A DNA stretch of 64,000 nucleotides from the NCBI GenBank assembly GCA_003697085.1, contig RFFU01000074.1, forward strand, positions 62,001 through 126,000, in the 5' to 3' direction. This document shows positions 40,077 to 62,603 of the stretch, in pieces. The stretch is from Candidatus Hydrogenedentota bacterium. Its GTDB lineage: Bacteria > UBA8481 > J006. The notes under the pieces are model-generated. The model did not search any database and was not told the DNA's origin. It saw only the letters and a list, made by a program, of their open reading frames with translations. Position numbers and translations under genes: made by a program. Each line of letters begins with the position of its first letter. Positions within the stretch are counted from its first letter, which is position 1.

Positions 40077-43000
40077 TCAACGGATCACCATCAATTTTTT
40101 GATCATTCGCTCACCCGAGTCTGTTTCGATAACGATGAGATACATTCCGGAGGCAAGGGGCCGGCCGTCGTCGGAGCGGACATCCCAGTGGAGTCGTCCT
40201 TCGGCGGAATTCTTCTCGATACGGCTCACAATTTTTCCCGCGAGGTTGTAAACCGTGATGCGAGCCTGAGAAGTGAGGTTATCGAAGAGGACTCCCGAGG
40301 CGGGATCGGAGGAAGACCACGGGCGTCCGGTTCGATCGTTGTTATCGAAAGGGATATACGGGTTCGGATAAACAACGACATTATCGAGAGAGCCGGCGGC
40401 GTTGGTGGCGGCGAGGACGGCGAAGAGTGTGAAGTGCCGGATGGTCGCCGTCACCGTGTTGTGAACGGGATCGACGATCGAGGAGTTCTCTTTGATCCAG
40501 AGGTTTGAGCCTTCGTCGAAGTGATAGATGGCCAAGGCTGCTTCGAGGATATTCGAATCGCCGACTTGATCGTTCTCCGGATCCGTATCGGGGTACGGCA
40601 ATGTCAGAGTCAAGGTTTTTTGAAACGAGCGTGCCCCATCCTCGCGGATCAACTTTCGAACAACCGCTTGAACGGGAACCGAGAGAGAGGTTCCCAAAGG
40701 TGCGGTGTCGGGGATATCAGCGAGAGAGATCATCCGAATCCAAACGGTGTCCGCAACGGCCCCGGAAGGAAGAGAAAGTATCGACGGGCCGAAATTTTCG
40801 ACGAGAAGAATCGTTGCGGAGGAATCAGGAAAAATCCTTTGGCGCGTGGCGGGTTCTCCGGCCGTGGTGAGAAATCCATCGACGACGGAATCAGCGTTGG
40901 AGATGGAGACGAGAAGGGGGGCGGGGTTGGTATCGACCGTTCCGAAGAGATCGGTTCCGACGGCGCGCAACTCGTAAAGGCCATCGGGGAGTGAAGAGAC
41001 ATCCCAGAGAAAACTCCAGAAGGGTCCCGTGGTGTCAGGATTGCTATTGTCGGGCGAGGAAGCCTTTACCCAGGTTCCATTGATCGGTCGGTATTCGAAA
41101 CGCACTTTGGTGATCGTATCCGAGAAACCTGCGCTGACGGAAACCGCGTTGCCGGAGAGGGAATAGGGAGCGAGGCCGGTTTCGGAGATCGTAACGAGCG
41201 AGGGCGATGTATCGAGCACGGTAACCGTCATCGAAAAAGAGTCGGAGTTTCCTTGCGCGTCGCGGAGGATCACGGAAAGGGAGGAGGTTCCTCCGGAAAC
41301 GGTGGTGTCGGTGACGAAGGTGAGGATCCAGGTCGTATCGGAATTCTTCGCCAGCGGGGTCGAAGCCCCCCCGCCCAGTGGAGTGAGGTCGATCAGAATT
41401 TCAAAGACGCCGGTGGAATCCGTGGCGGAGACGGAGAAGGAAAGGGTGTTTGTTTCGCTGTTGGAAATGGAATTGGGAGAGACACGGCTGTCGAGGAGCA
41501 GCGGAGGGGTTGTATCGACGGCGGAGACAACGAAGAAACCGAAAACAGCGCTCGTATTGCCCGCGTTGTCTTCCGTGATAATCTCCCAGAACCAGGTATC
41601 GGGTCGAAGGCGAACGAAGGTATCGGGTTTCAGAAAAACAGTATCAGCGGTCAAGGGGAGAGAGAAGGAGAGTTCGGTATCGATGAGAAGCCTATAATGT
41701 TTCAATCCGGAACCGGAATCGGCGGAAGGCGTCCAATCGAGGAAAGCGGGGGCGACGACGGTGGTCCCGCCCGTGGGGGTGAGAGGTTCAGGGAGCAACG
41801 GAGGAAGAATGTCGGTTAAGAATCGCGAATCGCCGGCGACCGTCGTATTCCCACTCGCATCCGTTGCAATCACGCGCCAGAAGAATGTGTCGTTTGCACC
41901 AGCGATCACGGTGACGTTCGTTTCCGCCAAGGTTGTGTCGATGGCGAACGGCGCGAAGAGGTCGGTGTCAACCAAAAGCCGGTAGGAGACGGAGGAGGAG
42001 TCGACCGCCTCGCTCCAGCGAAAGGTTATCTGAAGTTCACGAGTCTCCGCACCGTCGGAGGGAGAAAGGAGCAAGAAGGGACCGGGGGGGGTTGTGTCCG
42101 GCGGAAGCACGACAACGAAGCTTTCCGGCCCCTTTGTGTCGGTGTTGCCGGCCCCGTCGGTTACGATGACTCTCCAGAAATAGGTATCGGCCGCGAGAAG
42201 AAGTGTGGTGTCGGGCAGGGACTGAAAACCATCAAGGAGCGTCGATAATGGAGAAAAGGTGCCGACGGTATCCAATTGGAAGTGGTAAGTGAGGGAGGAG
42301 GAGAAGGAATCCGAGGCGGCGGACCATGTGAAGTCAACCGGGGAGAGCACGGATTCCCCGTTGGCAGGAGATGTGAGGGAGAGACCGGAGGGCGGGAGGG
42401 TATCGATGAGGAAGTACGAATCCCCCGCGGGAGTCGTGTTTCCGTTGATGTCCGTGGCGATCACCCGCCAGAGGTAAGAATCATTGGGGGAGAGTGTGAT
42501 GGTGAGGAACGTATCGGCGACCTTTGAATCGACGGCGTACGGAAACGACATATCGGTGTAGACGAGAACCGAATAGGAGACGGAATTAGAATCGAACGCA
42601 TCCGTCCAGCGAAGCGGGATCGTCGTCGCCGAGGTTTCCGTGCCATTTGTTGGAGCCGTCAGGGTGAAGGAATCGGGAGGGACGAGGTCGGCGGTTCCCA
42701 CGACGACGAAACTTTCCATAGTGGAGGCCGAAGTGTTCCCGGCGTCATCCACTGTAATAATCCTCCAAAACCACGTGTCCAGGGAAAGGGCGACGGTGGA
42801 GTCGACGGAGGTCTGAAAGCCGTCGAGAAAAGGGGCGAAAAAAAGGCCTGTGGTGTCGACCTGGAGTCGGTAGCCGGCAAGACCGGATGGTGTATCCGAA
42901 ACCGCCGTCCATTGGAGCGGGACGGGAGAAAGAACAGAGGTACCCGCCGTGGGGGAAAGGAGGAGGGAGGACGGAGGAGGGAGGGTGTCGATGATCAACA

Positions 43001-46000
43001 GAGAGGTGGTTGTCGTTGTGGTATTTCCGACGTTGTCGGAAACGAGAATTCTCCAGAAGAAGGTGTCGTTGGCGGCGAAGGTGAGGGTTCCCGTGGTATT
43101 CCTCCCCGTGCTGGAATCATCGAGAAGGGAGAGGAAGGTTCCGGCGGTGTCGGTTTGGATACGATATTCCCCGACTCCCGTCAGAGTGTCACTTACGGCA
43201 TTCCAGGAGAAAACGAGTGAACGGGAGGAAGTTTCGGTCGGGTTGGTGGGGGTGACCACGCCGGGAGCCGGAGGCGGCTCCGTATCAACGATGATTCGGG
43301 AATCTCCGGAGGGCGTGGTGTTCCCGGCGTCATCGGCGGCGATCACCCGCCAATACCAGGTATCCGCCGCGGGGAAGACGAGGATTCCGGTTGTCGAGGA
43401 AGAGGTGGAGGAGTCGATCAGGTCGAGCGTGAAGACCGTGTCCCGGGCGGCCTGAAGCCGGTAGGTTACGACGGAAGAGATACTGTCAGCCGCGGCCGAC
43501 CACGTGAAGGTTATCGACGCGGACCGGGTTTCGAATTGGTCCGCGGGCAGAAGCGGTTTGGGAGCCGTCGGCGGTCCCGTATCGACGGTGAAAGAATCGA
43601 ATGGTATCGGCCCCCCTGCGATATTTCCGAGGGAATCCGCCGCTTGAACCCGCCAGTAATAGACACCCTGGGGCAGCGGAGAAGCAAGAAGCGTTTGCGT
43701 GTCGGGAGGAGTGGTCGTTTCGGAAGCGAGAATCGTCGAGAAGGAAGACGAATCGGAAACAAGCAAGAGGTAGAAGGCCGTTCCGATACCGCCGTCCGAA
43801 GCACGGGACCAGGAAAAGGTCGGAGTCCGCGGGGCCAAGGCACCGCCGATCGGCGAGAGAGGAAGGACGGTATCCGGAGGCAAGGTGTCGGCGCGGAGAA
43901 GAATGAGCACGGAGTCGGAAGTTCCGGAGGTGTCATAGGCCGTGGCGACGACGATGGTGTCGGTTTTGTGCCGGAATTTGATGTGAAAGACGGCGGTGAA
44001 GGGCGAGGAAGCATCGGTTTGAAGCGGCGAATCGAAGGCTTGGGAAAAAGTAACCGAATCGGGATTCGGGGAGGTAAAGTCCACGGTGACCGTGAGTGTT
44101 TGTGTTTCGTTGGAGTACCAGACCGTGTCCCTACCGGTTGTTGTATCGAAGGACACCGGGGGGGAGATGCGGAGCGGCGTGTCGGAGGAAACGGTGAGGC
44201 TTGTGATGACCGGCGTCTCGACGACCGTCGCGGTGCTGCTGCTGTCTCCGGTCCATCGGATGTCGTCGAGATAAATGACCGCAGAGGCGGACGGATTGAC
44301 AAAGCGAAAGGATTGGACGAGGTGTCCCCAATCCATCGTCCCGTCCCCCCCGGCTCCGGAATTGATGGTGAAATCGCTTTTTCGGATTTGGAATCGCGTC
44401 CAAGAATCGGCTGTCGTGACGGTGACAATTTTCTCGGCGATATCGCCGGCCCCGAAGGTTCCATCGATCGCGCCGATCGTGAAACTGACCCCCGCGACAT
44501 TGGAACGTGCGAGGAATGTAAAGGTGTCGAAGGGATTCGCGTTCAGTGGGAAATCCTGGTCCTCCATCCAAACAACACCGAACCCTCCCCCCCCTCCGGA
44601 TTTCGTGTAGGTGATCTTCAGAGACATGTCACCCTCGCCGGCGGGGATATCATCGGCGAGCCGATCGATGGAGATGGCGTCCCCTCCGCCCGCCGCATAA
44701 GAAATCGGAGACTGGTGGCCGTCCCCGTAACGATTTCCATAGAGGATGAGGTCCCCGATCGTCAGAACTTCCGTGGGAGCGTTGCTCAATCCGGGTGCGG
44801 AGGCATCGATCGATACGGACTCGAGCTCCGTGTCCCACAGGGTCGTATAGGCGACTCCGCTTTCAAAAATGGGGGTCGACGTCCCAAGATGGACCGAGTT
44901 CGGGGACTGGGTGCCGTGTTCCGTGATGGTGATCGTGACATTTCCGGAATAAGAACGGTCAATTCTATTAGACGCGTCCAAGGCCCAGACTGAGACGAGG
45001 ATCGTCTCTCCCGCCGCGGCAAAGTCCCGCGCCATGAGACGAAGATGCGTCGCCGCTGTGAAAACGGCGTAGGAATCACGAAAGGAGGACGTTACCGAAC
45101 GAGGGAAACGATTCGTACCGCTCGCATCAATGCCCACCACCCCGAACCACTCTTCCTGCATCCCATTGTCGGTGTACTGAGTATTCGTCCAGGAAACCGT
45201 ATTGTCATGCGTCGAATTGTTTCCGGCTTTCCACCACTCATCGAGAAATTCGAAGGCCGTATGGGCTACAAGAATTCCTCCCGCGGAATCCTCGGCAAGA
45301 TTGGCGAAGATCTCATCGAGTTGCGGGTCGATTTCCGCTTTCTGCATCGCTTGGTCTTCGGAGGCGCTTCCCGTGTTGTAGGCATCGGCGCCGTGTTCCG
45401 AAATCCAAAAGGGCTTCGAAGAAAGCCCCGGATACGTGACCCAAAGCGTCGAGAATCCTCCCCCACGATAAATGTTGCCGCCCCAAATGTCCAGGTTGGT
45501 CATAGAGGCGTCGTCCGAGCCGACCCCCGGATCGCCCAGGTTCGCAATGTCACCGTTCGCGGATGCGACCGGATGAAAGGAATCCTCCGCTTTCAACTCG
45601 CCCGCGGCTTCGTTCAAAAGAGAATACCAACAACTCAAGGGATAACCGTCGTAGTTCTCTTCGTTTCCGAAACTCCAAAAGAGAAGTGCGGGATGCCCCT
45701 TGTGCTGTCGCATCATATTTCGGAGATGTTTCTTGAGAGTGGAGCGTGTCGAAGCATCACAGAAATCGGAACCCGCCGGCGGCAAGTAGTTCATTATGAC
45801 ATAAAGTCCGTACGCCGAAGCAGAATCCATTACCAAATCCCGCGTTACGGGATGATAGGTTCGGATAACATCGGCATTGAACGATTTCAGCAACGGGAAG
45901 TCCACGGTATGCGTCCGTGTTCCGTCTTCTTCCCACGCATATCCGCCTCCTTCTCCCACCGGTGTCGAAGAATAGGCGAAACCATGAGCCGTGTAGGGAA

Positions 46001-46142
46001 GACCCTCAACGAGTAATTGGCGGCCGGCCGTGCTGACTTTCGTCGGACCGGCGAGACCGCTCGTTGAGAAAAAAACGGCAAGATTGAAGGAAAGAAGGAA
46101 TCGGAAGAGATGACGACCCCGAAATGCGGTGGATAGAATCAC
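40077..46142 (-). CDS. Giant secreted multidomain glycosidase with eight Fn3-like repeats
   Basis: 2021 residues, GTG start, signal peptide (FRFLLSFNLAVFFSTSGLAG). Residues about 30-460: GH2-like TIM barrel with acid/base Glu in FWSFGNEEN (about 158) and nucleophile Glu in FWISEHGAD (about 248). Residues about 464-630: CBM11-like jelly roll. Eight fibronectin-III-like repeats of ~99 residues, each ending in WR(V/I)-x-DxxGNT, cover about 750-1540. Two further Ig-like domains and a ZU5-like segment follow. The last ~95 residues (from VVYPNPYIPFDNNDRTG, then ITVYNLAGKIV and GMYLIVI) match FlgD-Ig/type IX sorting domains. It probably degrades external polysaccharide at the cell surface. Substrate unknown. 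Confidence 0.88.
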   Translation of the reverse strand: MILSTAFRGRHLFRFLLSFNLAVFFSTSGLAGPTKVSTAGRQLLVEGLPYTAHGFAYSSTPVGEGGGYAWEEDGTRTHTVDFPLLKSFNADVIRTYHPVTRDLVMDSASAYGLYVIMNYLPPAGSDFCDASTRSTLKKHLRNMMRQHKGHPALLFWSFGNEENYDGYPLSCWYSLLNEAAGELKAEDSFHPVASANGDIANLGDPGVGSDDASMTNLDIWGGNIYRGGGFSTLWVTYPGLSSKPFWISEHGADAYNTGSASEDQAMQKAEIDPQLDEIFANLAEDSAGGILVAHTAFEFLDEWWKAGNNSTHDNTVSWTNTQYTDNGMQEEWFGVVGIDASGTNRFPRSVTSSFRDSYAVFTAATHLRLMARDFAAAGETILVSVWALDASNRIDRSYSGNVTITITEHGTQSPNSVHLGTSTPIFESGVAYTTLWDTELESVSIDASAPGLSNAPTEVLTIGDLILYGNRYGDGHQSPISYAAGGGDAISIDRLADDIPAGEGDMSLKITYTKSGGGGGFGVVWMEDQDFPLNANPFDTFTFLARSNVAGVSFTIGAIDGTFGAGDIAEKIVTVTTADSWTRFQIRKSDFTINSGAGGDGTMDWGHLVQSFRFVNPSASAVIYLDDIRWTGDSSSTATVVETPVITSLTVSSDTPLRISPPVSFDTTTGRDTVWYSNETQTLTVTVDFTSPNPDSVTFSQAFDSPLQTDASSPFTAVFHIKFRHKTDTIVVATAYDTSGTSDSVLILLRADTLPPDTVLPLSPIGGALAPRTPTFSWSRASDGGIGTAFYLLLVSDSSSFSTILASETTTPPDTQTLLASPLPQGVYYWRVQAADSLGNIAGGPIPFDSFTVDTGPPTAPKPLLPADQFETRSASITFTWSAAADSISSVVTYRLQAARDTVFTLDLIDSSTSSSTTGILVFPAADTWYWRVIAADDAGNTTPSGDSRIIVDTEPPPAPGVVTPTNPTETSSRSLVFSWNAVSDTLTGVGEYRIQTDTAGTFLSLLDDSSTGRNTTGTLTFAANDTFFWRILVSDNVGNTTTTTTSLLIIDTLPPPSSLLLSPTAGTSVLSPVPLQWTAVSDTPSGLAGYRLQVDTTGLFFAPFLDGFQTSVDSTVALSLDTWFWRIITVDDAGNTSASTMESFVVVGTADLVPPDSFTLTAPTNGTETSATTIPLRWTDAFDSNSVSYSVLVYTDMSFPYAVDSKVADTFLTITLSPNDSYLWRVIATDINGNTTPAGDSYFLIDTLPPSGLSLTSPANGESVLSPVDFTWSAASDSFSSSLTYHFQLDTVGTFSPLSTLLDGFQSLPDTTLLLAADTYFWRVIVTDGAGNTDTKGPESFVVVLPPDTTPPGPFLLLSPSDGAETRELQITFRWSEAVDSSSVSYRLLVDTDLFAPFAIDTTLAETNVTVIAGANDTFFWRVIATDASGNTTVAGDSRFLTDILPPLLPEPLTPTGGTTVVAPAFLDWTPSADSGSGLKHYRLLIDTELSFSLPLTADTVFLKPDTFVRLRPDTWFWEIITEDNAGNTSAVFGFFVVSAVDTTPPLLLDSRVSPNSISNSETNTLSFSVSATDSTGVFEILIDLTPLGGGASTPLAKNSDTTWILTFVTDTTVSGGTSSLSVILRDAQGNSDSFSMTVTVLDTSPSLVTISETGLAPYSLSGNAVSVSAGFSDTITKVRFEYRPINGTWVKASSPDNSNPDTTGPFWSFLWDVSSLPDGLYELRAVGTDLFGTVDTNPAPLLVSISNADSVVDGFLTTAGEPATRQRIFPDSSATILLVENFGPSILSLPSGAVADTVWIRMISLADIPDTAPLGTSLSVPVQAVVRKLIREDGARSFQKTLTLTLPYPDTDPENDQVGDSNILEAALAIYHFDEGSNLWIKENSSIVDPVHNTVTATIRHFTLFAVLAATNAAGSLDNVVVYPNPYIPFDNNDRTGRPWSSSDPASGVLFDNLTSQARITVYNLAGKIVSRIEKNSAEGRLHWDVRSDDGRPLASGMYLIVIETDSGERMIKKLMVIR

Positions 46143-54989: not shown

Positions 54990-56012
54990 TCAGAATGTCG
55001 TGTCCCTTTGTATGAGCGATACCGGAAGGACATAATGGTATCGGCGGATTTTTTTACCGGCGATTATTTTGAGAAGAAGATCCGCGGCTTTATAGCCCAT
55101 TTGCCACGCAGGAACCCGGATGGTCGTTAATCCGATCGCCTGAGTGTAACGCCAACTCACATCGTTGTAGCCGACGATTCCGGCTTCTCCAGGAACGGAA
55201 AGGCCCGCCTCGGAAAGGATTTCCAGGAGAGGAAGTGCGAACTCGTCGATCGAAAGAAAAAAACCGGCGGTATGGGATTTCCTTTTGAGAATATTCCGGA
55301 GTTTCTGTAACGGGGCTTTACCCGATTCATCGACATTGACGAAAATGACCGGTTGAGGATCAAGTCCCTTTTGAAATCCGGCCAATTTTTGTTTTTGGCT
55401 GTAACTCGAAGAAAGAGAGAGAAAATAGTATTTTTCATAACGCCCCCGCTTCAGTACGCGTGCTGCTTGTATTCCTCCATCAAAGGCGTCGGCCATGACA
55501 GAGGGAACCATGTCAAGAGAATCGTTGCGGAAATTGACGAACACGAACGGAAAAGACCGGGAGATTAATTGGCGCAGTTCACCGGGTTTTATTCTTTCTC
55601 CGAAAAATAGTCCCCCGTCGACCCGGCCTTCCCGGATCGCTCGAAGATAATTCGGGGTCTTATCAAGACGGGAAGTATTTTCTAGAGTGGAAGCAAGTTG
55701 AACGTAATAATTGGATTTTTCCAGTAAATGGGCCGCACCCGAAAGAACCAACGAATGGTACGGCGCCGCTGCTGAGTAAAGTTCGTCGCTTACGAAGAGA
55801 ATGTTGGACGTTCTGCTCATTACCAGACCGCGGGCGGCCGCGTTGGGGTAATAGTGATTCGCTTTACAAACCTCAAGAACCCTTTTTCTCGTCTTGGGAG
55901 CAAACGGTACCTTTTTGTCTGGATCGTTGAGAATGCGCGAAACGGTCGAAATGGAAACTCCCGCTCTTTTTGCGATCTCTTTGATTCCTACACGCGTTCT
56001 CGATTGCCCCAT
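54990..56012 (-). CDS. LacI-family transcriptional regulator
   Basis: 340 residues. N-terminal helix-turn-helix TRVGIKEIAKRAGVSISTVS and hinge segment ARGLVMSRTSNILFV, then a periplasmic-binding-protein-like effector domain (VDGGLFFGE, AGIVGYNDVSWRYTQAIGLTT and KAADLLLKII are family features). Divergent from the transporter genes at 56467, which it probably controls in response to a sugar. The effector is unknown. It lies in the AT-richer locus. Confidence 0.92.
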   Translation of the reverse strand: MGQSRTRVGIKEIAKRAGVSISTVSRILNDPDKKVPFAPKTRKRVLEVCKANHYYPNAAARGLVMSRTSNILFVSDELYSAAAPYHSLVLSGAAHLLEKSNYYVQLASTLENTSRLDKTPNYLRAIREGRVDGGLFFGERIKPGELRQLISRSFPFVFVNFRNDSLDMVPSVMADAFDGGIQAARVLKRGRYEKYYFLSLSSSYSQKQKLAGFQKGLDPQPVIFVNVDESGKAPLQKLRNILKRKSHTAGFFLSIDEFALPLLEILSEAGLSVPGEAGIVGYNDVSWRYTQAIGLTTIRVPAWQMGYKAADLLLKIIAGKKIRRYHYVLPVSLIQRDTTF

Positions 56013-56466: not shown

Positions 56467-59130
56467 ATGGAACCCGGCGAGGACGTAAATTTAGGGAACG
56501 AGCGTTGGCGCGCGTGGCAGATTCTGGGGTGGATCGGAATTGCTTTGGTAGCCTGTATTGTACTTCTCTTTGGTTCCCATAAAGAAACCGTTGTGGAGAA
56601 GGGCGTTGTCCTTCACTTGAAGGAACGTCCCGAGTTTAGTTACGACAATTTGGAAGTCCGCGCGGAAAAAGCGGTTTTTAAGGAGTTCATTAGAAGACAT
56701 CCGGAAATTACGCTTCGGAATACCTCGGACCTAAAGGTGCCGAATACGCCGAGCACCGAGCTGCTTTCCATCGCCGGCAACATCGCACCGGATGTCTTTC
56801 GCGTCTCCTTTTCCCAGATGCGGAGTTATATTGAAGAGGGCTTTGTCGCCGATATTACTGATGATTTGGACACGGAATATCGCAGGAATATCCCGGAGAA
56901 GATATGGAAGATTGCGGAGAAGGAGGGGCGCTATTACGGAATTCCCGCGGAGTATATGAACGCAGGATTGATTTACAACAAACAACTCGTTGCGGAAGCC
57001 GGGTTGGATCCTGAAAAGCCTCCCCAAACATGGGAGGAACTCTTTTATTGGGCGCAAGTGTTGACGGATCGGGACAAGATTATGCATTGGGGGGATAAAA
57101 CTTTGGTTGGGCGATGGGGACTGGGTTGGCTGCTGGGGGAAGCGATCGAAGATCGAAATTTTACGACGACGGCGGGAGAATTTTTCGCGAATTTGGTGTG
57201 GCAATATGGCGGAAAAATGGCTGTCGAAAAGGACGGGAAATACAGGGTGTCCTATGCCTCACCCGCCGGAAAAAAAGCTCTGGATCTGATCTGGAAATTC
57301 AAATGGGCACACTGGTTCAAGGATGAACAGGGCCGCGTTATTACGTTGCGGGATGCCTCCGGAAATGTGGTGGTGACCCGGGACCAGTTTGAAAAACTCG
57401 CCGCCCGTGGACCGTACAGAGACGAATACGGCCAAAAGTGGGATTTGCGAAAATTGGATTCGGAAAGAAGAATTATTCGCGGCGTGATCAATGGTAGCGC
57501 TTCCGGCGAAGAGGCCTTAGGAGGAACGAGTCGAGGGTTCGTGCTCTTTGCCGTGGGCGCCGAACGCTGCGCAATGGCGATCGGCTATCCGCGTAGAAAT
57601 TTGGTCAAAATGGTCCAAGGATACGGCCATAAGGACCTCTATGGTTTCGCCCCTTTGCCCGTCGTCAAAGGGGGAAGGCCTGCTAACATGGTTCGCGGTT
57701 TTGTTTATGCCGTGAATGCTCAGATTCGGGATCCGAAGATTCGAAAGGCGGCCGTAGAGTACATCAAATTCCTCTGCTCTGAAGAAGCGAATCGAATGCG
57801 GACGGAACAGTACCTCGCGGAGGACTGGGGTATCCTTGTCCGACCGGATTGGCTTAGAAAATTCGGGTACAACGATGTCTATGAACAGATTCCAAAGGAA
57901 TGGCGGGAGTCCTATCAAAAGATGATGGCGCATTCCCGTTTGGCTCCGCTCTTTGGAAAATACGCCCAAATCCAGTCGAACGAGCTCAAAGAACCGCTCC
58001 AAAGGATTCTGTTGGCGGATGCGGAAAAGCCGGATTTGATGCGGTTGTTGAAAACTTCCGAAAAACGGGCCAATACGATGGTGTTGGGAATGCGCGATCC
58101 AAAGGATATGGCCCGGAAACGACGGATCGCGATAATTGTGCTTTCGTTGGCCGTGTTGGTAATCGGCTTTATCGTTGTTCGGTATTTGAGAGAGCTGACT
58201 CAGGCCTATTCTTCGGACACGGGGCCGGCCGCCGTCAGCGGCCGGAAAGGGGGGTGGACACATCACGTCGGAGCATGGATTTTCTTGATTCCGGCAGTTC
58301 TGACTATACTTCTTTTTCAGTACTATCCACTCCTTCGCGGCTCGGCGATGGCATTTTATGATTGGAAACTCCTGGGGCCGAAAACTTTTGTAGGACTCGA
58401 TAATTTTATCGAGGCCTTCAGCCAACCGCTCTTTTATAAGGTGGTCAAGAATACTTTGTATTACGTCGGGCTTACAATGTCCCTTGGATTTGTTGCACCG
58501 GTGATTCTCGCTATTCTCCTCGCGGAGGTCCCCAAGGGGAAGATATTCTTTCGTGTCATTTACTATATCCCGTACGTGACGACTGGGCTGGTTATTCTTT
58601 TTCTCTGGAAGATGCTTTACTATCCGGGAGAGAGCGGCTTTCTGAATACGTTGTTGGCCCATTTCGGTCTGGGCCCCTATCGCTGGCTTGAGGATCCGAA
58701 ACTTGCGATGATTTGTGTTGTACTTCCGGGAATTTGGGCCGGTGCCGGTGCCGGATCGATAATTTATCTTGCAGCTCTTGCAGGAATCCCTGAAGAAGTT
58801 TATGAAGCAGCGGATCTTGACGGGGCCGGAGTCTTTGACAAGATCATCAAGATTACAATTCCGTTTCTCAAACCTTTGTTGATTATTAATTTCGTCGGGG
58901 CGTTTATCGGGGCGTTTCACGCGTCCGCCAACATATTAATGATGACAGGAGGAGGTCCGCTTAATGCAACGAATGTTTTGGGAACGGAGATTTTCATTAA
59001 ATCGTTTATCTATTTGAAGTTTGGTTATGCTACCGCGCTCGCCTGGATCCTCGGAGCGTTCCTTATCGGATTTACACTGCAGCAACTAAAGATTATGAAG
59101 AATCTCGAATATCGTACGACGGGGAAATAG
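56467..59130 (+). CDS. Fused sugar-binding protein and MalF-type ABC permease
   Basis: 887 residues in one frame. A membrane helix (WIGIALVACIVLLF, about 21-36) anchors an extracytoplasmic solute-binding domain (about 45-540) of the sugar-binding SBP family: GRYYGIPAEYMNAGLIYNK, TWEELFYWAQVL and AVEYIKFLCSEEAN. A second helix (IAIIVLSLAVLVIGFIVVRY, about 553-573) and a short Gly/Ser linker lead to a CUT1 permease domain (about 600-887) with the EAA loop EEVYEAADLDGAG near 775. The SBP thus has two anchors and is tied to its own permease. Partner permease begins four bases downstream. No ATPase is nearby, so a shared MsmK/MalK is likely. Confidence 0.9.
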   Translation: MEPGEDVNLGNERWRAWQILGWIGIALVACIVLLFGSHKETVVEKGVVLHLKERPEFSYDNLEVRAEKAVFKEFIRRHPEITLRNTSDLKVPNTPSTELLSIAGNIAPDVFRVSFSQMRSYIEEGFVADITDDLDTEYRRNIPEKIWKIAEKEGRYYGIPAEYMNAGLIYNKQLVAEAGLDPEKPPQTWEELFYWAQVLTDRDKIMHWGDKTLVGRWGLGWLLGEAIEDRNFTTTAGEFFANLVWQYGGKMAVEKDGKYRVSYASPAGKKALDLIWKFKWAHWFKDEQGRVITLRDASGNVVVTRDQFEKLAARGPYRDEYGQKWDLRKLDSERRIIRGVINGSASGEEALGGTSRGFVLFAVGAERCAMAIGYPRRNLVKMVQGYGHKDLYGFAPLPVVKGGRPANMVRGFVYAVNAQIRDPKIRKAAVEYIKFLCSEEANRMRTEQYLAEDWGILVRPDWLRKFGYNDVYEQIPKEWRESYQKMMAHSRLAPLFGKYAQIQSNELKEPLQRILLADAEKPDLMRLLKTSEKRANTMVLGMRDPKDMARKRRIAIIVLSLAVLVIGFIVVRYLRELTQAYSSDTGPAAVSGRKGGWTHHVGAWIFLIPAVLTILLFQYYPLLRGSAMAFYDWKLLGPKTFVGLDNFIEAFSQPLFYKVVKNTLYYVGLTMSLGFVAPVILAILLAEVPKGKIFFRVIYYIPYVTTGLVILFLWKMLYYPGESGFLNTLLAHFGLGPYRWLEDPKLAMICVVLPGIWAGAGAGSIIYLAALAGIPEEVYEAADLDGAGVFDKIIKITIPFLKPLLIINFVGAFIGAFHASANILMMTGGGPLNATNVLGTEIFIKSFIYLKFGYATALAWILGAFLIGFTLQQLKIMKNLEYRTTGK

Positions 59131-59134
59131 AGCG

Positions 59135-61453
59135 ATGCCAATCATTGCCAAGGTCGGCCGGAAGGATATCGGGGTTCGCTTTACGATTCTTGCCATTTAC
59201 CTGCTGTTGATCTTGGGAGGGATTACGATGGTGTATCCCTTCCTCCTAATGGTGAAAATTTCAATTTCATCCAAAATGGACAATGATGATTATGGATTGC
59301 CCCGCTTTCTTTACGATGAAAACCTCCTGATGGCGAAATACTTGAATGAAAGGCATTCCTACTGGACTGGGCCGATGGCGTTACGTTACCACCGTGACTA
59401 CGGCATCTGGAAAGATCTGATAACTCCTGTAGCTCAAAAAGTGTATCCGCTGGATGACTCCACCCGCGTTGATCGGATTCGAAAAGCTGCGGAAAAATTG
59501 AAAAACGATTTGGAGGCACGGATTCATCCGAAAGACCAAAGGTTGATTACCGCGAAAAACCTGATACTGAGTCATCTTCAACGTATTTTGGCGAGAAAAA
59601 CGCCTTATGACGACCCTCTTCTCACTCGGCTCTTTGAAAGAAATTATGTGGAATTGGGGGAAAGGCTGGGCGAAATAAGGGATCCGAAACATTCGTCCGT
59701 TCTCCGGATTATTCGAAAGGATATCAAGAATCTCGAAGCGTTACGTTCCCCGAAATTCGATCTGAATGACAAGAAGGTGATGGCGGATGTTCAACGGTTG
59801 GGAATTGAGTGGCTGAATTATAAAAAGACGCTTCCGTTGGAATTGAAACAAGTGAATTTTATGAACTACAGTAACAATGGGAAAAACCAACGGGCGTTTC
59901 AGGAGTTTGTTAAGAAAAAATACGGAGGGGATATTTCGAGGGTAAATCGAATTTACGAGGACGGTGTCACCTATTTTTCGGAAATTCTTGCCCCTCATGG
60001 AGGCAGTATCTTTGGTGTGGTCCGTTCTCGTTATTCTGCGAAGGATCGAGATTGGATCGCGTTTAATAAAACGTTGAAGGAAGAGGAATTCTGTGTCCGT
60101 TACTGGGAGGGAAATGAAGCGCGTTGGGGGGAATTTTTTGCCGATCAAGTGAAACGTTATGCCCTGAAAAATGCTCCGGAGAAGTACCATCGATGGGAGG
60201 CCTATTTCAATACGGAGTACAGCGTGGAAGCCATCAACGATATTTTGGGGACCTCTTTTATTCAGGCAAGTTGTCTCTCGCTTCCACTCCCTGACAAAGG
60301 ATTGCTGAAAAATAGAGTCGTTCGCGGTATATGGAAAAGGTTTCTTCTGGAAAATCGGGAAAATCTCAATTTCCTCAGGATCAACGTTACAAAGAAACTT
60401 CAGGAGCGGTTTTCGGAATATCTTCAAAAAAAATATGGAACCGTCTCGCGGCTTAATCGGGTATTGTCCCGGGAATTGTCAGAGGGGGGGACGAAGTTTC
60501 GGAGGTTTGAAGATTATGAATTGGCCGCCAATCGCCCGTTGGAGACGATGGCGATGCGGAGAGATTGGGATGAATTTGTGCGGACTCAGTGTCCTATTGA
60601 ATATATTCAATATTATTCCTACGAGGCGCGGTGGCGGGACTACCTGAGACAAAAATACGCGAAGATTGAGAACTTCAATAAAACTCTTAAAACACGGCGT
60701 TACCGGTCGTTCTCAGAGGTTCCAGCCCCCTTTGCAGAATATGACCTCTATGATTATCTCAAGCATAGAAAAGGGTTGCGTTGGCGTTTTGTATGGGCGA
60801 ATTATCGGTATGCCTTGGATCGCCTCTTCTTTAATGGAAGGGCGGCCTATAATACTCTTGTCCTCGTGGCCTTATCCCTGTTTACTGCGCTGACGGTGAA
60901 TCCGCTTGCGGCTTATGCACTTTCGAGATTTCGTTTGAGTTACGCCCATAAAGTTCTCCTTTTCTTTTTGGCGACGATGGCGTTTCCCCCCGAGGTGACG
61001 ATGATTCCGAATTTCCTTTTGATAAAAGAATTGGGCCTCCTGAACTCGTACGCGGCTCTCGTGCTTCCCGGGATGGCGAATGGCTTTTCAATCTTTCTTC
61101 TGAAAGGGTTCTTTGACAGTATTCCGTTGAGTTTGTATGAGGCGGCAGAGCTTGATGGGGCCAACAATTTTCAAATGTTTTATAAAATCACACTTCCCTT
61201 GTCGAAACCTGTCTTGGCCGTCATTGCGTTGAACACGTTCATGTATGTCTACGGAAGCTACCTGTGGGCGTTGCTGATTTGTCCGGCCAGAAAATTTTGG
61301 ACGATTATGGTTTTTGTTACACAATTTCAACAGGTGCAACTTCCTCATCAAACAATGGCGGCGTTGGTCCTGGCTGCATTGCCCCCCTTGATTGTCTTTG
61401 TGCTTTGCCAAAAGGTGATTATGCGCGGGATTGTCATTCCCCAGTCGAAGTGA
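59135..61453 (+). CDS. MalG-type ABC permease with a ~515-residue extracytoplasmic insertion
   Basis: 772 residues instead of the usual ~280. The first helix (FTILAIYLLLILGGITMVYP, about 13-34) is followed after residue ~45 by ~515 polar residues, and the other permease helices start near 572 (NTLVLVALSLFTALTVNPLA). The EAA loop is LSLYEAAELDGANNF near 661. The insertion contains four spaced units of the pattern F..Y(L/F)..KY..(I/V)..(L/I)N (about 250, 350, 422, 495), e.g. QEFVKKKYGGDISRVN and RDYLRQKYAKIENFN, resembling a helical piece of GH42-like enzymes. It may contact the tethered binding domain or substrate. ATG four bases after the fusion gene. Confidence 0.9.
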   Translation: MPIIAKVGRKDIGVRFTILAIYLLLILGGITMVYPFLLMVKISISSKMDNDDYGLPRFLYDENLLMAKYLNERHSYWTGPMALRYHRDYGIWKDLITPVAQKVYPLDDSTRVDRIRKAAEKLKNDLEARIHPKDQRLITAKNLILSHLQRILARKTPYDDPLLTRLFERNYVELGERLGEIRDPKHSSVLRIIRKDIKNLEALRSPKFDLNDKKVMADVQRLGIEWLNYKKTLPLELKQVNFMNYSNNGKNQRAFQEFVKKKYGGDISRVNRIYEDGVTYFSEILAPHGGSIFGVVRSRYSAKDRDWIAFNKTLKEEEFCVRYWEGNEARWGEFFADQVKRYALKNAPEKYHRWEAYFNTEYSVEAINDILGTSFIQASCLSLPLPDKGLLKNRVVRGIWKRFLLENRENLNFLRINVTKKLQERFSEYLQKKYGTVSRLNRVLSRELSEGGTKFRRFEDYELAANRPLETMAMRRDWDEFVRTQCPIEYIQYYSYEARWRDYLRQKYAKIENFNKTLKTRRYRSFSEVPAPFAEYDLYDYLKHRKGLRWRFVWANYRYALDRLFFNGRAAYNTLVLVALSLFTALTVNPLAAYALSRFRLSYAHKVLLFFLATMAFPPEVTMIPNFLLIKELGLLNSYAALVLPGMANGFSIFLLKGFFDSIPLSLYEAAELDGANNFQMFYKITLPLSKPVLAVIALNTFMYVYGSYLWALLICPARKFWTIMVFVTQFQQVQLPHQTMAALVLAALPPLIVFVLCQKVIMRGIVIPQSK

Positions 61454-61523
61454 TCGCCGGAACATAAACGAATACAACTTTCGAGGGGAAAAGGGGGATT
61501 TTTTGAAAAAAAAGGAGGAAACG

Positions 61524-62603
61524 ATGGTTTCGGAAAATAGGTCTTTTATGGAAAACCTGGCTGTCTTGAAAAGGGCAAGAACCCGTTCCATCAGTCCAGA
61601 GAATTTTTCCGGGGAGAAAGGAAAGGGCGGAATGGCCACGGAAGGAACGGGTAAAGAATGTGCACGTGATTTAGGACAGGGCTGGAAGATATCACCGAGT
61701 GTTGTGATTGGTTCGGGGACCACGTTTGTGTTGGCCGAAATAGAAGGTCCCGGGGTGATTCAGCAGATTTGGCTTACGCCAACCGGGAATTGGCGCCATC
61801 AAATCCTCCGGATTTTCTGGGATGATCAAGAAGTTCCGTCGGTTGAATCGCCCGTGGGGGATTTTTTCGCTATGGGGTGGGGGAGATTCGCCCCGATTTC
61901 CTCGTTGGCTGTCTGTGTTAATCCGGGAAGTGCCTTCAATTGTTATTGGGCGATGCCATTTCGAAGGAAATGTCGCATTACTTTGGAGAATATTTCGGAG
62001 GAGGATGTTGTTCTTTATTATCAGATTAACTATTCATTGGAGGATGTTTCCGAAGAGTGCGCGTACTTTCATGCGCAGTTTCGTCGCACGAATCCCCTGC
62101 CCTATAAACAGGTTTATACCATTTTAGACGGTGTCCGCGGCCGCGGACATTATGTGGGGACTTATATGGCCTGGGGTGTCAATAACAATGGATGGTGGGG
62201 GGAAGGGGAGATTAAGTTTTATTTGGACGGGGACGGGAAATTTCCAACGATTTGCGGAACCGGAACGGAGGACTACTTTTGCGGTTCCTATAATTTTGAA
62301 AACCGTGAGACGAAACAGTACCAGGAGTTTTCGACACCTTATTCCGGCTTGCACCAGGTAATTCGTCCCGACGGCGTCTATCAGTCTCAAACGCGTTTTG
62401 GGCTCTATCGCTGGCATCTTGTTGATCCGATCCGTTTTGAACAGGATCTGCAGGTTACCATACAAGCGTTGGGATGGCGAGGAACATCGGGGCGTTACCT
62501 TCCGCTCCAGGATGATATCGCTTCCGTGGCGTATTGGTATCAGACTTTACCGACGGCTCCTTTTCCGAGACTCCCAGACAAAGATTACCTGGAGGTGATA
62601 TGA
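61524..62603 (+). CDS. GH172 (DUF2961) family glycoside hydrolase
   Basis: 359 residues from ATG 61524, preceded by AAAAAGGAGGAAACG. No signal peptide, so probably cytoplasmic. DUF2961 features: KISPSVVIGSGTTFVLAEIEG, GPGVIQQIWLT, and the signature TICGTGTEDYFCGSYNFE with the likely catalytic Glu. Characterised GH172 members act on difructose anhydride or D-arabinofuranosyl and related furanosides. In this operon it probably cleaves the imported oligosaccharide. Its TGA overlaps an ATG at 62600 by four bases. Confidence 0.9.
   Translation: MVSENRSFMENLAVLKRARTRSISPENFSGEKGKGGMATEGTGKECARDLGQGWKISPSVVIGSGTTFVLAEIEGPGVIQQIWLTPTGNWRHQILRIFWDDQEVPSVESPVGDFFAMGWGRFAPISSLAVCVNPGSAFNCYWAMPFRRKCRITLENISEEDVVLYYQINYSLEDVSEECAYFHAQFRRTNPLPYKQVYTILDGVRGRGHYVGTYMAWGVNNNGWWGEGEIKFYLDGDGKFPTICGTGTEDYFCGSYNFENRETKQYQEFSTPYSGLHQVIRPDGVYQSQTRFGLYRWHLVDPIRFEQDLQVTIQALGWRGTSGRYLPLQDDIASVAYWYQTLPTAPFPRLPDKDYLEVI

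Follow-up and report, generated by a model that had tools for sequence, protein, structure and literature searches.

A candidate type of bacterial sugar importer with a receptor fused to MalF and a repeat-built ectodomain in MalG

Two adjacent genes of a Candidatus Hydrogenedentota bacterium belong to a real, apparently undescribed type of bacterial sugar importer. They lie in a window of 64,000 nucleotides (the whole stretch of DNA that was analysed), where one gene joins an extracytoplasmic solute-binding protein (SBP) to a MalF-type permease and the next encodes a MalG-type permease with a giant insert after its first helix. We consider it probable that these genes form the membrane half of a CUT1 importer of a distinct, ancient lineage, with one tethered receptor and a repeat-built MalG ectodomain that would act as a docking scaffold, and this is the best explanation of the findings described below. 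At the level of sequence, the architecture is well supported, and it is new relative to the known MalGs with giant inserts and the known importers with fused SBPs.

The two transporter genes and their surroundings

Both genes, and all parts of them described here, are on the + strand. The SBP-MalF fusion (56467..59130) encodes a protein of 887 aa. Hydropathy places a membrane anchor or signal, either retained or cleaved, at aa 14-43 (56506..56595), followed by the extracytoplasmic solute-binding domain at about aa 44-545 (56596..58101), which matched Pfam SBP_bac_1 (1e-19, spanning aa 68-210) and SBP_bac_8 (3.8e-12); SBP_bac_1 was also matched in 24/24 fused relatives. The binding domain is joined to the permease by a second membrane helix (aa 548-578; 58108..58200) that is present in the relatives too (residues 482-512 in L046 and 509-538 in L138), and a linker of about 20 residues, which should be cytoplasmic, separates this helix from the first MalF helix at aa 598-624, as judged by hydropathy. 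The MalF-type permease core (aa 598-887; 58258..59127) matched BPD_transp_1 (1.5e-11, aa 679-867) and the UgpA/MalF models. Its EAA loop, the predicted contact with the ATPase (aa 779-799; 58801..58863; YEAADLDGAGVFDKIIKITIP from the translation), is conserved in the family and intact (YEAADLDGA...ITIP). Some fused MalFs have extra hydrophobic segments between MalF helices 3 and 4 (L144:2524-5790, L155:516-3551 and L160:1295-4312).

Four bases after the stop codon of the fusion, a second gene (59135..61453) begins that encodes the MalG-type permease of 772 aa. Helix 1 (aa 10-45; 59162..59269), predicted from hydropathy, lies behind a conserved N-terminal signature, and the conserved columns of the MalG N-terminus are M1, V7, G8, K10, Y34, P35 and F36. 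The inserted ectodomain that follows (aa 46-556; 59270..60802), predicted from hydropathy to be extracytoplasmic, gave a Pfam match to GH42 (2.5e-7). Helix 2 begins at about aa 570, and the permease core (aa 561-772; 60815..61450) matched BPD_transp_1 (4.5e-14, aa 604-765). The EAA loop of MalG, likewise a predicted ATPase contact (aa 668-690; 61136..61204; YEAAELDGANNFQMFYKITLP from the translation), is also intact (YEAAELDGA...ITLP). The best NCBIfam matches of the pair were UgpA/MalF and UgpE/MalG and, as in CUT1 systems, two distinct BPD_transp_1 permeases with EAA loops are combined with an SBP_bac_1-family receptor. The first-pass annotation had described an SBP joined to a MalF-type permease through a second helix and about 515 extra residues after helix 1 of MalG; the reading frame, Pfam and hydropathy agree with the former, and the insert measured about 511 residues. 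Its suggestion that the receptor is permanently attached holds for the encoded protein, with the topology read from hydropathy only.

A LacI-family regulator (54990..56012, - strand; Pfam LacI 4.1e-13, Peripla_BP_3 6.3e-19) is divergent from the transporter genes and, judged by its position, is likely their repressor. Downstream and in the same operon is a DUF2961 (GH172) glycoside hydrolase (61431..62603, + strand; Pfam DUF2961 1.3e-96), although its translation may in fact begin at the ATG at 61524. Further downstream in the same direction, beyond the window end, are genes for an L-fucose-isomerase-family protein and a ribulokinase (552 bits against an NCBIfam cut-off of 428), and between the GH172 gene and the isomerase gene is an ORF of 402 aa with no Pfam or NCBIfam match (L015:12900-14108; window 62899 to beyond its end). 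Characterised GH172 members include alpha-D-arabinofuranosidases (PMC10115798) and a difructose dianhydride I synthase/hydrolase (PMC8605356). Because the GH172 enzyme, the L-fucose-isomerase-family protein and the ribulokinase follow the transporter in the same direction, its substrate in this organism is probably a pentose-containing oligosaccharide. In the G222 phylum, the operon has a GH130 phosphorylase gene next to it at two loci, and GH106 enzymes are encoded at two loci of the G005 phylum (both phyla are introduced below); therefore the substrate probably differs between lineages. The neighbourhoods in other phyla revealed no shared sugar pathway and no conserved neighbour apart from the fusion. 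No MalK gene was found beside the pair in the window; MalK-type ATPases are encoded elsewhere in the same genome, on contigs C91 and C55. Two other long frames were noted: a frame of 3326 aa that lies past the operon on the same contig, about 5 kb beyond the window end, and matches TIG domains and a beta-propeller (L194:8039-18016), and an open frame of 2021 aa within the window (40077-46142, - strand).

Recurrence and ancestry of the pair

The MalG protein was used to search 290 genomes that span the bacterial tree, and three matches stood far above ordinary MalGs: one in G222 (open frame of 763 aa) and those in G005 and G153 (506 and 524 aa). Many other long MalG open frames of this first broad search were discarded, being upstream frames that overlap malF in GC-rich genomes. 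G222 has the same adjacent pair, with an SBP-MalF of 812 aa and a MalG of 758 aa. In its phylum, 9/13 genomes matched the MalG profile, and the fused pair was present at 6/7 fetched loci, the seventh being truncated by a contig end; in four of these loci (L124-L127), a MalK gene immediately precedes it. In the phylum of G005, which is probably Armatimonadota, MalG matches were found in 133/251 genomes (125 of them strong), and the fused SBP-MalF directly adjoins MalG at 23 of the 34 further loci that were fetched. The two genes are apart in family f6, where a single SBP-MalF fusion stands out at another locus in all seven genomes examined, near recA at four of the five loci read (L195, L196, L198 and L199); a MalG of this family adjoins a rhomboid gene (L047), which gives a sugar transporter housekeeping surroundings. 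Counting the phylum of the window, in which this is the one copy among 2 genomes, the pair is found in at least three bacterial phyla. Three matches in a fourth phylum, in G561, were set aside as probable contamination (a 3.3 Mb genome at 5% contamination, with two cleaner congeners that do not have the gene). A scan of the genome contigs for close relatives returned one ordinary MalG, and the viral contigs yielded only a chimeric fragment of a repeat-type MalG; in this fragment (IMGVR_UViG_3300035158_000188; L173:4752-5249), the MalG N-terminus is the in-frame continuation of a phage-like ORF, either as an assembly chimera or as a recombination product.

A profile built for the SBP-MalF fusion was run against the 251 genomes of the G005 phylum as well, and strong matches only were counted. 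Both proteins were found in 120 genomes and neither in 125; five had only MalG (G393, G411, G438, G457 and G459) and one only the fusion (G396), and all six of these assemblies are incomplete or fragmented. Fisher's test gave 2e-64 for this co-occurrence, a value that does not count independent events since the genomes are related. In a tree with 45 other MalGs, all 44 repeat-bearing MalG cores, the window protein among them, formed one clade (support 100/100, stem of 1.54 changes per column), although the relatives were found by similarity to the window MalG and the sample thus favours one clade; no other long MalG was placed within it. The fused MalF partners, including that of the window, likewise formed one clade (35/35, support 100). 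The suggestion that these genes represent a distinct transporter class is strengthened by these results, since the adjacency recurs in many genomes and the permeases form their own clade; homologues with the same architecture, whose absence would have spoken against it, were found in well over a hundred genomes.

The pair was compared with known systems. E. coli MalFGK2-MalE also has MalF and MalG with EAA loops, an SBP_bac_1 receptor and a large extracytoplasmic permease loop. In contrast to E. coli, however, the SBP is here covalently part of MalF, and the large ectodomain, which in E. coli lies between MalF helices 3 and 4, here follows helix 1 of MalG and comprises 511 aa with GH42-like repeats. 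OpuA and GlnPQ are glycine-betaine and amino-acid systems, respectively, in which permease homodimers carry two or more receptors. Their receptor is covalently attached to the translocator, as it is here, whereas a CUT1 heterodimer of the present type would have one receptor and its permeases are not of the betaine or polar amino-acid families. No CUT1 or sugar-type SBP-permease fusion was found in the open papers searched.

The repeat array and its possible role

The insert is a tandem array of repeats of about 67 residues, of which a profile built from the recurring motif recognised 196 copies in 44 MalGs. Seven copies per MalG are found in the G222 phylum, usually five in the G005 phylum and two or three in family f6. 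The window MalG has four recognisable repeats, the first 200 residues of its insert being too diverged to call: aa 252-315 (59888..60079; i-E 6e-13), a partial unit at aa 352-395 (60188..60319; i-E 2e-4), aa 423-496 (60401..60622; i-E 1e-16) and a last unit at aa 497-562 that runs into helix 2 (60623..60820; i-E 2e-10), with a GH42 Pfam match at aa 496-533. The repeat consensus is EALYRKFLEEKYKGDIEALNKAYGTDYKSFEEIRLPERLPDN...DWEEFVREFLPRNYLRVLDY, and its conserved positions hold chiefly N, P, W, F, Y and L rather than paired acids. AlphaFold2 gave a pLDDT of 37.5 for the whole MalG (single sequence) and 44.7 for two of the window repeats, values too low for either model to be used. No single conserved insert surface is evident, because the net charge of the inserts among the relatives ranges from +26 to -26.

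As read from hydropathy, the SBP has a membrane helix at either end and continues into MalF. The fusion, which the sequence shows, fixes one receptor per transporter, so that a MalF-MalG pair has a single receptor and this receptor is unable to leave. Two MalK-type ATPases, encoded elsewhere in the genome, may dock on the intact EAA loops. The repeat array is anchored at both ends by MalG helices 1 and 2; since both ends are bound to these helices, it must start and end at the membrane on the same side of the channel as the receptor, beside the SBP. There it is most probably a protein scaffold that would place the tethered SBP above the channel or clamp it in position, in the role of the P2 loop of E. 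coli MalF. A docking or clamping scaffold is the simplest reading because of the strict partnership of the repeats with the fusion.

Previous work on MalG1 and MalG2 of Thermotogales described a hydrophilic region of about 500 aa that separates helix 1 from helix 2, which was then absent from any other known MalG and whose function was unknown (Noll et al., 2008; PMC2246101). The position of the insert is the same as here, but the Thermotogales insert has no sequence relationship to the present one, and the SBP is a protein of its own, as published and also in L214. For comparison, we retrieved four large MalGs (L213-L216; assigned to Thermotogota from length and similarity); the repeat profile had no match in them at i-E < 1 and their permeases fell outside the repeat-bearing clade, elsewhere in the tree, and on these grounds we rejected the idea that the window insert is the Thermotogales insert. 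The giant insert, which the first-pass annotation had singled out as unusual, is confirmed in this MalG, although an insert of similar length at the same place had already been published. Other CUT1 MalGs have unrelated inserts of roughly 100-150 aa after helix 1 (L013:1767-3089, L014:5981-7210, L069, L070, L077 and L081), and the MalG loop at this place looks like a hotspot for domain insertion. The unrelated Thermotogales insert raises the thought that this site may suit spacers, and the array could then be an envelope tether that extends outward and places the importer at the peptidoglycan, at a porin of the outer membrane or at a glycosidase on the surface, with SBP docking unchanged. A repeat architecture with a variable copy number would suit such a tether, and a repeat number of 2 to 7 fits a spacer or outward tether as well as a clamp. 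However, both ends of the array are anchored in the same permease, and its near-perfect co-occurrence is with the fused SBP, the sole conserved neighbour, rather than with a known envelope partner; we regard a tether as possible but rather doubtful.

The repeats themselves resemble part of a glycosidase. Against solved structures, the repeat profile gave its best match to residues 158-226 of the GH42 beta-galactosidase 1kwg (E 1.4e-8), to which the unit is homologous, with weaker matches to GH14 beta-amylases and GH50 agarases. The Pfam GH42 profile matched 27/48 single repeats and 16/22 whole MalGs; the matching part comprises only about 40-65 residues, at positions about 147-214 of 376. This part is the helical segment that follows the acid/base residue of GH42; the acid/base stretch is absent from the repeats, as are about five GH42 residues between two conserved blocks (the FWSQR loop in 1kwg), where the repeats have a gap. 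NE[YFWHG] motifs are sporadic (11/44 proteins) and occur in inconsistent places. The notion of a hidden GH42 enzyme was rejected: unlike GH42 enzymes, the window insert matches a partial profile that includes neither the TIM barrel nor the acid/base and nucleophile regions, and has this segment tandemly amplified in a permease. Tandem arrays were found in the permease only; in the genomes examined, the motif occurs just once in any other protein that has it, and 3/4 of those checked are GH42/GH35-like. The permease thus seems to have gained its tandem copies by amplification of a helical element from a glycosidase barrel, a direction of descent that we infer. The homology to a segment of three glycosidase families suggests that the repeats might bind carbohydrate, or act on it, and so pre-concentrate substrate for the tethered SBP, but with so short a segment downstream of the acid/base residue, the missing loop and the scattered motifs, we consider this improbable, and the same features leave the earlier proposal that the MalG ectodomain holds the substrate unsupported. 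We favour a scaffold rather than an enzyme because only one GH42 segment matches, with no catalytic region and no paired acids.

It is also conceivable that the fusion and the insert are unrelated neutral decorations of an ordinary CUT1 importer, since each feature can exist alone. Unrelated inserts occupy the same MalG site in other systems, and SBP-MalF fusions arose elsewhere at least three times, twice in the window genome, with MalGs that have no repeats. These independent fusions are at L012:5212-7764 (contig C91), L013:1-1770 (contig C55), L083 in G001 and L079 in G228, their MalGs being ordinary or with a small insert; the C91 fusion adjoins genes for a GH94-like phosphorylase and MalK. 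In the repeat-bearing lineage, however, 120 of the 126 genomes having either protein have both, unlinked cases included; shared ancestry explains part of this, yet within the clade there was no clear case in which the repeats alone or the fusion alone had been lost, and mere decoration seems still less credible than carbohydrate binding. Although the source is a draft assembly in 145 contigs, an assembly error, frameshift or pseudogene can be dismissed, since no such error was found, the ORFs contain no internal stops, and full-length, intact homologues occur in many independent genomes, several of them single-contig.

Meaning for binding-protein importers

Taken further, the scaffold reading suggests, more tentatively, that a glycosidase segment was amplified in MalG into a solenoid that would arch over and hold the MalF-fused receptor, giving a self-contained importer with one receptor, in which docking would be governed by the ectodomain. 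In binding-protein importers generally, a mobile receptor that outnumbers the transporters is considered an advantage. A lineage that gave up this arrangement and has one receptor per channel and a large dedicated ectodomain would be natural material for asking what the free pool of receptors is for and how docking is controlled. The pair also suggests that part of a glycosidase became the unit of a tandem repeat within a membrane transporter, and it brings back into view the unexplained giant inserts of MalG that were described in 2008.
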